Source of the DNA: Gammaproteobacteria bacterium
Lineage (GTDB): Bacteria; Pseudomonadota; Gammaproteobacteria; Burkholderiales; Rhodocyclaceae
Reading direction: 5' to 3'
Assembly (NCBI GenBank): GCA_018825305.1
Contig: JAHJEO010000016.1
Location: forward strand, 1 to 64,000
DNA length: 64,000 bases
Positions 1 through 54,842 of the stretch are shown here, piece by piece. The position numbers and the translations under genes were made by a program. Within the stretch, counting starts at the first letter, position 1. Every line of letters begins with the position of its first letter. The notes under the pieces were generated by a model. It saw only the letters and a program-made list of their open reading frames with translations. It searched no databases and was not told where the DNA came from.

Positions 1-143
1 ATGGTGGCGCGGGCCTGCAACATCGTCTCGAACCAGTGCTCGTTCAGGCACTCGTCGCGAAACTTGCCGTTGAAGCTCTCGATGTAGCCATTCTGCATCG
101 GCCGGCCGGGTTCGATCAGGATATGGCGGATGCCGTGGGTTGC
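1..143 (-). pseudogene. IS3-family transposase, C-terminal fragment (cut by window edge)
   Basis: Read on the minus strand this translates to ...ATHGIRHILIEPGRPMQNG followed by YIESFNGKFRDECLNEHWF. That is the hallmark block of the integrase core of IS3-family OrfB transposases, and the Glu of YIESFNG is the third residue of the DDE triad. The reading frame is intact to position 1, so the rest of the gene, if present, lies outside the window. At about 143/144 it joins abruptly to an integrase-like sequence in another frame, with no IS end visible. The N-terminal part of the transposase is therefore absent and the fragment is unlikely to be active alone. Confidence 0.85.
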
Positions 144-330
144 CTAAGCACGGAATCAGATGCTCGTTGATGACGCGGATGTAGTCAGCGTAAGAGACCT
201 TGCCCTTACCGCTGGCCGTCTCTTCGTTCATCCGTTCAATCGCAAGCTTGGCGACATTCGAGAACTTGCGTGTGACGACAGGCAGATTGGAACGCTTGCG
301 TATCAAGCGGCCTAGCGATAGTGAGTGGAA
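144..330 (-). pseudogene. Tyrosine (phage-type) integrase, N-terminal domain fragment
   Basis: The minus-strand frame reads LGRLIRKRSNLPVVTRKFS, then NVAKLAIERMNEETASGKG and KVSYADYIRVINEHLIPCLG. This resembles the SAM-like DNA-binding domain that precedes the catalytic domain in phage and ICE integrases, where the core usually begins after a stretch like YxRVINxxLIPxxG. No clear start codon or upstream arm domain is seen, and the downstream catalytic half is replaced by the IS3 fragment. It is a remnant. Its place just downstream of a tRNA 3' end is where tRNA-targeting elements normally keep int. The family call rests on pattern recognition only. Confidence 0.55.
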
Positions 331-361
331 GCTTGCAGACGATTGCCGTAGCTGAAGAAAA

Positions 362-391
362 AAGAGGACTGTCGCAATCGACAGTCCTCTT
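362..391 (-). terminator. Rho-independent terminator after tRNA-Ile
   Basis: There is a perfect 13-bp stem (AAGAGGACTGTCG / CGACAGTCCTCTT) with a 4-nt loop. On the minus strand it is followed by a run of T residues (CTCTTTTTTCTTC). It begins 5 nt beyond the tRNA CCA end and is therefore placed to end the tRNA transcript. Confidence 0.85.
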
Positions 392-396
392 ACCGT

Positions 397-678
397 TGGT
401 GGGCCCACTTGGACTTGAACCAAGGACCAAAGGATTCGGGTTTGTGTAGCTTTCGCTACTCCCTGGACTATGCCTTCACCGTAGCTCTCGCCTTAGGTGG
501 GTGCCGTCTAGTCTCTACACCTTCAACAAGCATTTCTGCTTGAAGCTTGGCTCGGCGTTGCCGTATGCATTGCTGCACTTAGGTTTCTCCGAATTTGACA
601 CCATCCCATACGCAGTTTCCAAGCGTATGGCACATTTTCATATGAGTCCTCTGCTCTAACCAACTGAGCTATGGGCCC
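397..678 (-). tRNA. tRNA-Ile (CAU anticodon, Ile2 type), interrupted by a group I intron
   Basis: Exon 1 is 642-678 (GGGCCCATAGCTCAGTTGG...GACTCAT) and exon 2 is 397-436 (AATCCTTTGG...GTGGGCCCACCA). Joined, they give a full cloverleaf: 7-bp acceptor stem GGGCCCA/TGGGCCC, anticodon stem GAGGA with loop CTCATAA, T-arm TTGG-TTCAAGT-CCAA, and an encoded CCA. The CAU anticodon combined with GACTCATAATC and the TTGGTC variable region matches tRNA-Ile2, which is read as AUA-specific after lysidine modification by TilS, rather than tRNA-Met. The 205-nt insert sits between positions 36 and 37, directly after the anticodon. This appears to be the only complete copy in the window. The neighbouring copy at 832-872 is broken. 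Confidence 0.93.
437..641 (-). ncRNA. Group I self-splicing intron in tRNA-Ile(CAU), Azoarcus type
   Basis: The insert is 205 nt long and closely follows the known Azoarcus tRNA-Ile ribozyme. The internal guide GTG pairs with the exon-end CAT, forming a P1 hairpin CATAT-GAAA-ATGTG. P2 is CCATACGC/GCGTATGG. The core contains GATGGTGTCAAATTCGG, GAAACCTAAG, AGACTAGACGGC and ACCCACCTAAGGC, which are the P4-P6 and P7 strands. P6a is CAAGCA-GAAA-TGCTTG and P9 is GTAGC-GAAA-GCTAC. The last intron base is G (omega-G), before exon AATCC. Several stems differ from my recollection of the Azoarcus sequence by paired changes, which argues for a functional RNA. No ORF is encoded. Confidence 0.93.
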
Positions 679-831
679 GTAAAACCTATTTTAGTTGTTC
701 GACGACTGCAAAAAACGGTGCTGCTACTGCTGAAAGTGTGTAAGTGGTGTGTAAGCACTTTTTCACACTGCGAAAACGCGGAAACCGTTGCTACTACAGG
801 GCTTGCGGACTTTAAGCTATCTGGTTGAATA
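679..831. other. Spacer between the two tRNA-Ile copies; possible attachment-site remnant
   Basis: There is no convincing gene here. It contains a direct repeat GTGTGTAAG at 736-744 and 747-755, followed by TTCACAC in the opposite sense at 762-768. Spaced repeats of this kind occur in integrase arm-binding regions of attP-type sites, but they could also be chance. It separates the intron-bearing tRNA from the broken tRNA half. Confidence 0.35.
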
Positions 832-872
832 GATTATGAGTCCTCTGCTCTAACCGACTGAGCTACAGGCCC
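832..872 (-). pseudogene. tRNA-Ile(CAU) 5' half, truncated after the anticodon loop
   Basis: The minus strand reads GGGCCTGTAGCTCAGTCGG, then TTAGAGCAGAGGACTCATAATC, after which tRNA similarity stops. It matches exon 1 of the complete tRNA at 34 of 37 positions. The differences lie in the acceptor stem and D-loop. The missing 3' half means it cannot fold as a tRNA. It lies about 95 bp past the rpoD stop on the same strand. That is where I expect the resident tRNA-Ile2 in this group, so this is probably the original gene, cut at the anticodon loop. Confidence 0.85.
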
Positions 873-966: not shown

Positions 967-3141
<2,175 letters not shown>

Positions 3142-3263
3142 GTCTTTCCTCAACGTCGGGCAGCTCTCGCGTGACACCGACACGGCGGCACGACACAAGT
3201 GGTGTTCAAGTGTGTCGTTACTGCTTGCCGGTCGGTACCGAGGGATATTCGGGAAAACGTTAA

Positions 3264-54296: not shown

Positions 54297-54842
54297 TCAT
54301 TCTTCCTTCGCTGCCTCGGTCAACTCGCGCAGCACCCGGAAGATTTCGCGGAAGGCGCGCGGCGGCTTGTTGTTCTCGCGCTCCTTGAGGGCGTTGCGGC
54401 GTAGCTGGCGCAGCTGGGTGATGTCGGTGCCGGGATGGTCGCGGGCAATCTCGCCCACCACGGCCTCGTCCGCCAGAAGGCGTTCGCGCAGGCGTTCCAG
54501 CGCGTGCTGGCGGGCGTTGGCGGCGTTGGAGATGCCGTTGATCTCATCAAGCACGGCGCGGATCGGTTCGGGCTCGATGCCGCGCATCAGCTTGCCGATG
54601 TATTGCATCTGGCGGGCGACGGCGCCGTGGCTGGTGAAGCGCTGGCAATCGCGGATGGCGCCCATCAGGTTGTCCGGCAGGTCGAACTTCTTCAGCTGGT
54701 CGCGCGACAGGGCGACCAGCTCGGCGCCCATGTCCTGCAGCGCGGTCGATTCGCGCTTCTTCTGCGACTTGCTCGGGCGCAGGTCTTCTTCGCCTTCGCT
54801 GGCGGGCTCTTCATCGGTGCCGGGGACGTAGTGCTTGCTCAT
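54297..54842 (-). CDS. darP: Ribosome-associated protein DarP (YjgA)
   Basis: DarP/YjgA binds the 50S precursor near the peptidyl-transferase centre and helps its maturation. The protein has 181 residues: SKSQKKRESTALQDMGAELV, then LPDNLMGAIRDCQRFTSHGA and RQMQYIGKLMRGIEPEPIRA. All are family signatures. I chose ATG 54842 (MSKHYVPG). The pairing with divergent pmbA is conserved in beta- and gammaproteobacteria. A TATAAT-like box lies about 15 nt before the start. Confidence 0.94.
   Translation of the reverse strand: MSKHYVPGTDEEPASEGEEDLRPSKSQKKRESTALQDMGAELVALSRDQLKKFDLPDNLMGAIRDCQRFTSHGAVARQMQYIGKLMRGIEPEPIRAVLDEINGISNAANARQHALERLRERLLADEAVVGEIARDHPGTDITQLRQLRRNALKERENNKPPRAFREIFRVLRELTEAAKEE

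Follow-up and report, generated by a model that had tools for sequence, protein, structure and literature searches.

The essential tRNA-Ile(CAU) gene (tRNA-Ile2) beside rpoD in this Rhodocyclaceae genome is broken in its anticodon loop, and we consider it likely that the element which split it carries its own copy of the gene, shielded from integrase by a group I intron in the anticodon loop of that copy. The window, that is, the whole stretch of 64,000 nucleotides that was analysed, begins with the first base of contig C19, in a genome of 3.16 Mb (29 contigs, 98.45% complete). The following features of its left end bear on the argument.

3..143, minus strand: transposase fragment with the rve_3 core domain, running to the contig end (Pfam PF13683, E 1.4e-18)
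133..339, minus strand: tyrosine integrase remnant, 69 codons matched of about 453 (comparison with a relative)
362..391, minus strand: terminator-like hairpin of 13 pairs after the replacement tRNA (one found against a shuffle mean of 0.7; weak alone)
397..678, minus strand: intron-bearing tRNA-Ile(CAU), the replacement; exon 1 678-642, intron 641-437, exon 2 436-397 (Rfam, ARAGORN)
437..641, minus strand: group I intron, 205 nt, after CTCAT and before AATCC (RF00028; family alignment)
679..831, minus strand: left end of the element, from broken half to replacement tRNA (same layout in relatives)
735..756, minus strand: pair of adjoining 11-bp repeats, GCTTACACACC / ACTTACACACT, probably arm sites of the integrase
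832..840, minus strand: shared core CTCATAATC, 9 nt (common to both halves)
832..872, minus strand: attL, the resident tRNA-Ile(CAU) from its 5' end to the break in the anticodon loop (sequence, Rfam tRNA)
967..3198, minus strand: rpoD, upstream neighbour of the target tRNA (homology)

Reading out of rpoD on the minus strand, the tRNA half comes first: 872-832 gives the first 41 nt of tRNA-Ile(CAU), with unrelated sequence after CTCATAATC. An earlier note on this DNA had taken this half for a resident tRNA-Ile(CAU) broken in the anticodon loop, and sequence and Rfam agree with it, the half scoring 26.8 bits, under the 29-bit cut-off. A genome search with the junction region of the window matched C20:632-671, and the missing 3' half, which the earlier note expected at the far end of the element, is present at C20:627-671, reading CTCATAATCCTTTGGTCC...CCACCA from C20:627 with unrelated sequence before it. 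Joined at the common CTCATAATC, the two halves yield a 77-nt tRNA with anticodon CAT (ARAGORN). The part of the core common to 29 related left junctions, CTCATAA, is the 7-nt anticodon loop, and the gene beside rpoD is intact and intron-less in 3/3 same-genus genomes searched. The proposed integration into the anticodon loop is thus borne out by both halves, by their 9-nt common core and by the uninterrupted locus in relatives. Both junctions (C19 and C20) are half genes with a short common core, the tRNA not being rebuilt; the sequence between C19:1 and C20:1 is missing from the assembly.

Fragments of tRNA genes are known to arise from other causes (PMC9897764), and the half might be an old, decayed tRNA duplicate, unconnected with integration. 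We give this reading next to no credence: it is ruled out by the 3' half on C20, which matches and carries the same core in the same genome, and 29 loci repeat the layout, as does G120, a genome in a single contig. An assembly artefact at a contig end, suggested by the start of the window at base 1 of C19 and by the 3' half lying near the start of C20, deserves practically none at all, since the junction region 397-872 lies wholly inside its contig, and the same arrangement in the single contig of G120 rules the artefact out.

The complete copy at 397-678, with an intron close to the breakpoint, is as the earlier note described it, the intron being of group I type and lying inside the crossover core. 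When introns are allowed, ARAGORN finds a 205-nt intron in the 678-397 gene, which spliced gives a 77-nt tRNA with anticodon CAT. Neither plain ARAGORN nor the RF00005 genome search reports the intron-bearing tRNA at 397-678, and since default tRNA searches missed it, such elements may be under-counted. RF00005 lists 38 tRNAs for the genome, all of which were read; two have the anticodon CAT and are presumably, from sequence features, the elongator and initiator tRNA-Met, and none is Ile(CAU) or Ile(UAU). A genome BLAST with an intact tRNA-Ile2 gave no full-length copy. The genome-wide count thus yields no second intact tRNA-Ile(CAU), an absence that is not absolute because the RF00005 list omits a tRNA-Ser(GGA) that ARAGORN calls at 54492-54586 of the window, and is therefore not exhaustive, and because tRNA-Trp and Ile(GAU) were not seen in the draft genome either. 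The genome encodes TilS, which modifies tRNA-Ile(CAU). No promoter was called ahead of the replacement tRNA.

The replacement tRNA lies about 150 bp inside the left end of the element, and about 150-350 bp inside it across the family. One more copy of the 11-bp repeat occurs near the other end of the element on C20. Relatives have similar tandem repeats in a survey that, at its settings, found none in the window. The mobile fragments that the earlier note placed on the far side of the tRNA are both confirmed: the remnant at 133-339 (minus strand) has 67% identity to residues 51-119 of a relative's integrase, and it is cut by the transposase fragment at 3-143, whose rve_3 domain we attribute to IS3-type transposases. 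Such an integrase remnant, together with the transposase fragment, means that the element is dead in the window's genome. Since the integrase is dead, the host appears locked into the intron-bearing copy, a state that looks permanent here. The integrases of relatives match phrog_1, phrog_216 or PF00589; among five full-length island integrases searched with Pfam, three had no match (P0001, P0002 and L136). No match to the G009 integrase was found among 50,697 phage records at E 1e-5. A known plasmid was rejected as a candidate for the element, the G009 integrase matching 6 of 72,556 plasmid records with less than 60% identity at the best place in each, and so was a relative on a viral contig, two stretches fitting a pattern and neither being a relative.

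The arrangement is not peculiar to the window. A search of 150 genomes gave, among the matches listed, a near-full-length intron-bearing gene in G000, G009, G120, G029 and G032. In G009, G120 and G032 a broken 5' half lies just upstream of the intron gene and the 3' half elsewhere, the two halves being 32.7 kb apart in G120; in G029 the intron gene directly follows rpoD and no tRNA-Ile2 half was found. For a broader view, an alignment of six integrases was run against 84,980 genomes, the best 80 of 93 relatives giving 78 loci, all of which were scanned by BLAST for broken halves and copies. A broken 5' half stands upstream of a full tRNA-Ile2 copy in 29 of these 78 integrase-fetched loci, and rpoD falls within the fetched stretch in 22/78. 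At each of the 29 left junctions the sequence diverges after CTCATAA, an agreement partly built in because the probe for the halves ended in CTCAT. The replacement has an intron in 23 of the 29, at CTCAT/AA in 18 (type A) and at CT/CATAA in 5 (type B). It has none in the other six, five of which have an anticodon stem changed relative to the broken half (L130, L132, L146, L165, L179); the sixth, L136 (L136:9600-18800), combines no intron with an unchanged stem and is an unprotected replacement. The 3' half of L136 lies about 8.7 kb downstream of the integrase start. At L189 the half that was used is what remains of an earlier replacement.

The remaining loci are varied. At L129 and L141 a full-length integrase is accompanied by a single intact tRNA-Ile2, as in classical islands, and at L201 a single one accompanies an integrase cut by the contig end, all three judged at the near junction only. 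Where the half or the target is not visible, an intron-bearing copy is still present in L139, L155, L164, L167, L180 and L197 and a changed-stem copy in L131 and L134. Genes for tRNA-Lys, Phe or Cys adjoin 15 of the 78 loci. L164 and L188 come from a single MAG whose title, Klebsiella pneumoniae, looks wrong, its L164 integrase being nearly the same as that of the Nevskiaceae MAG L163. A split tRNA-Ile2 with an intron-bearing copy was also seen at L393, L423 and L405, in G216, G395 and G476. In the single-contig genomes G120 and G476 the three best full-length tRNA-Ile2 matches are Lys, Phe and Ile(GAU), so that the intron copy looks like the only tRNA-Ile2 there, as judged on those three matches. 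The claim that the replacement was brought in by the element is upheld by this recurrence, which includes two single-contig genomes with no other tRNA-Ile2 seen, and neither another intact tRNA-Ile(CAU) in the window's genome nor relatives with the half and no element were found.

The intron itself matches RF00028 with 49.7 bits (E 1.9e-11; cut-off 50), and no other match occurs in the whole genome at E up to 10. Elsewhere the RF00028 scores are 49.1 bits in G029, 47.7 in G009, 51.4 in G120, 58.5 in L142, 56.7 in L167, 78.2 in L135 and 40.0 in L200; for type B introns the Rfam match is weak (L190 30.3 bits, E 7e-4; L177 no match at 0.001). Its splice borders, CTCAT/ATGAAA...CCCG/AATCC, place a U before the 5' splice site and a G as the last intron base, and, with CTCAT before it and AATCC behind it, the intron interrupts the crossover core. 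In type A, 37 of the 74 predicted pairs show compensatory changes, 28 of them within the intron or at its borders and 9 in tRNA stems; in type B the figure is 32 of 71 (24 and 8). These counts lean towards the predicted structure because RNAalifold drew the pairs on the same alignment. The type-A alignment holds 19 copies, without the near-copies L140, L153, L154, L162, L189 and L197 and the longer L135. That the intron is spliced in the cell is suggested by G120 and G476, where the intron gene is the only tRNA-Ile2 seen.

How could such an arrangement have come about? An integrative element with a tyrosine integrase would have crossed over in the CTCATAA of the rpoD-adjacent tRNA-Ile(CAU), cutting the gene in two. 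Since its attP would share a short common core only, the gene would not be rebuilt at either junction, and the element would supply a complete tRNA-Ile(CAU) instead of rebuilding the resident gene. If the anticodon arm of the carried copy were intact, that copy would be an attB site in its own right: the element's integrase could attack it, with self-destruction of the circular form, and so could later elements. As the intron would remove the core at the DNA level and be spliced out of the RNA, the copy would keep its function and lose the target. The two intron positions and the changed-stem alternative would all meet the need for a copy that is invisible to the integrase. We infer immunity to the integrase, and immunity as the reason why the intron is kept, from comparison of sequences, and the comparisons that follow lend the idea of shielding support.

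On an integrase tree of 71 rows (69 of the 78 loci with at least 300 residues, plus two; quick method), the intron label, which at L156 and L172 was scored from the 3' half and the intron end only, undergoes at least seven changes across starred branches, and 13 by parsimony. A changed anticodon stem occurs in 5/6 intron-less copies versus 4/23 intron-bearing ones (Fisher p = 0.005, which ignores relatedness). The changed-stem copies form one integrase clade (6 rows, support 99), and in the rest of the 5' half the six intron-less copies average 6.3 differences, against 1.9 and 2.6 in the others; the stem change may therefore come with a foreign tRNA.

Two loci seem to show the fate of an unprotected replacement, namely to be split by a later element. 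In G131 the elements are nested: a replacement that reads as intron-less is split by a second, later element, the 3' part of the split copy not being found in G131. An apparent intron-less replacement at L189 has likewise been split by a later element. L180 of Limnohabitans sp. Jir61 and the second G131 element have the left end in common, and their integrases are identical on the tree. In Jir61, L180 lies downstream of L138 on the same contig, the L138 copy has an intron, and L180 adjoins a bare core, where the element end meets CTCATAA and no tRNA half is present. The contrast between G131 and Jir61 is one pair and not a statistic. The tRNA-Ile2 copies of L138 and then L180 carry different introns, type A followed by type B.

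It is conceivable that the intron is a mere passenger, elements having captured tRNA-Ile2 from hosts that already bore it, with no role in shielding. This finds some support. A pattern search from the intron side, covering 399 genomes of the order and all tRNA isotypes, elements included, found the intron-core pattern in 45 genomes at 47 sites. At several sites the intron garbled the anticodon given by ARAGORN, and genes were therefore named by their 5' half; because short-flanked loci hide any upstream half, most order sites and some class sites were rescanned on longer stretches. At least 14 intron-bearing tRNA-Ile2 genes lie close to rpoD without a split half or an integrase-model match in the stretch read (L384, L385, L388, L390, L400, L401, L412, L418-L422, L424, L437), compared with 8 genomes in which a split half is seen (G000, G032, G120, G131, G347, G216, G395, G476). 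The intron is thus not confined to elements, and in the order sample genes without a visible half are no rarer than split ones. Introns also occur in other tRNAs, namely in Leu(UAA), Arg(CCU), Thr(UGU), Ser(UGA) and Asn(GUU) genes of the order sample, and in phage tRNA arrays, and the L136 replacement does without one. However, an intron is present in 23/29 replacements versus 45/399 order genomes with the pattern, denominators that differ in kind; two introns at two positions of one core are found within one integrase clade, where the Polynucleobacter locus L157 is type B among type A and the integrase lies up to several kb from the tRNA; and most intron-less replacements differ in the anticodon stem. 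We therefore regard the passenger as improbable. Either hosts inherit the intron from elements or elements take it from hosts.

Several observations were made along with this survey. Intron-bearing tRNA-Thr(TGT), Ser(TGA), Arg(CCT) and Asn(GTT) genes of the same GTDB order, at L406-L411, L414, L415 and L425-L427, showed no upstream split half. Among the matches listed, the viral contigs L208-L287 hold many intron tRNA genes, often in tRNA arrays, mostly called as tRNA-Leu(TAA) and tRNA-Tyr(ATA), the latter maybe another isotype. No related integrase was detected with the group I-like introns in other tRNAs and phage tRNA arrays. Agrobacterium phage Atu_ph07 has an unannotated tRNA-Leu(TAA) at L207:1417-1778 with a 278-nt intron (ARAGORN), which gave no RF00028 match at E 0.1.

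Could the intron instead serve some other purpose, for example by protecting the precursor from anticodon nucleases or by tuning tRNA supply? Defences that degrade tRNA have been proposed as selection on phage tRNAs (PMC10865867), and many intron tRNAs do occur in phage tRNA arrays. However, the mature tRNA would be the same after splicing, and the changed-stem alternative would be left unexplained, making this a very unlikely reading compared with the shielding that we favour.

Breaking a host tRNA and carrying a replacement is already known. In tRNA-dependent lysogeny, shown by experiment, actinophages do precisely this, with attP and attB sharing 8-17 bp, the host tRNA not rebuilt and tRNA-Ile2-CAT among the targets (Guerrero-Bustamante and Hatfull, mBio 2024, PMC10865867). 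The tyrosine integrase, the short common core and the host tRNA that is not rebuilt are alike here, whereas in place of actinophages the carriers are islands in the chromosome, next to rpoD, of Beta- and some Gammaproteobacteria, and the replacement is armoured, 'intron' occurring in the available text of that paper in a reference title only. The same authors speculate that a plasmid-borne tRNA may act as attB for a second plasmid (PMC10865867), which is the weakness that armouring would remove. Classical tDNA islands share the tyrosine integrase, the anticodon-loop crossover and a tRNA fragment at the far end, but their attP restores the tRNA (Islander, PMC4383910), whereas here nothing is restored and the element brings an entire gene. 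In the T-loop of tmRNA, group I introns likewise take several positions in one small loop of an RNA gene often targeted by integrases, but neither a replacement copy nor protection from integrases is proposed in the available text (PMC11915505). Group I introns in bacterial tRNA genes, including the tRNA-Ile of Azoarcus, have been reviewed (PMC3984707), but in our case the intron gene sits on an integrated element beside a broken resident gene, and the text of that review to which we had access has 0 occurrences of 'integrase'. No paper joining Azoarcus, group I intron, tRNA and integrase was found, and armouring of a replacement against integrase was not found in the literature, as far as the sources available to us extend.

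A possible parallel comes from Gordonia phage Daredevil, which is described as lacking a tRNA of its own and as forming clear plaques (PMC10865867). Its genome (NC_048021.1) contains, at L206:2378-2689 and beside the integrase, an unannotated tRNA-Lys(TTT) that a 238-nt intron-like insert interrupts; between tRNA and integrase lie a CTTTTAA core and arm-like repeats. The insert aligns with type-B introns and has no RF00028 match at E 0.1. The clear plaques either count against function of this tRNA-Lys or reflect another defect.

As to cargo, matches to the Zorya type I proteins ZorA1, ZorB1, ZorC1 and ZorD1 are encoded on the G120 element (L067/L068), and in G131 (L070) the integrase of the second element is followed downstream by a type I restriction-modification system. 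Two elements have confirmed DUF6641 proteins and three a confirmed second, small tyrosine recombinase; in other elements both have look-alikes by eye. L137 encodes a Rep ORF2/G2P-like protein.

The anticodon loop is a favourite target of integrases, and group I introns usually pass for neutral or selfish. A wider proposal, which is possible and which we advance tentatively, is that anticodon-loop group I introns in bacteria are kept as DNA-level shields against tyrosine integrases, islands hiding their replacement tRNA from their own and rival integrases and hosts keeping the introns afterwards. The G029 intron, which we take to be the Azoarcus ribozyme, has the same anticodon-loop position, the same core and the same Rfam score range as the intron in the window, and on the shielding proposal it would be the relic of an element. 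The broken half shares about 37 bp with the replacement, and loss of the short stretch between them would leave the intron gene directly after rpoD. The Daredevil tRNA-Lys(TTT) would be an independent case. If the proposal is true, a group I intron would benefit its bearer by hiding a gene from a site-specific recombinase while leaving the product unchanged, and a mobile element would be able to tell its own attB copy from that of the host. It would also help to explain why group I introns are found in anticodon loops, and it would offer a possible origin for the Azoarcus ribozyme.
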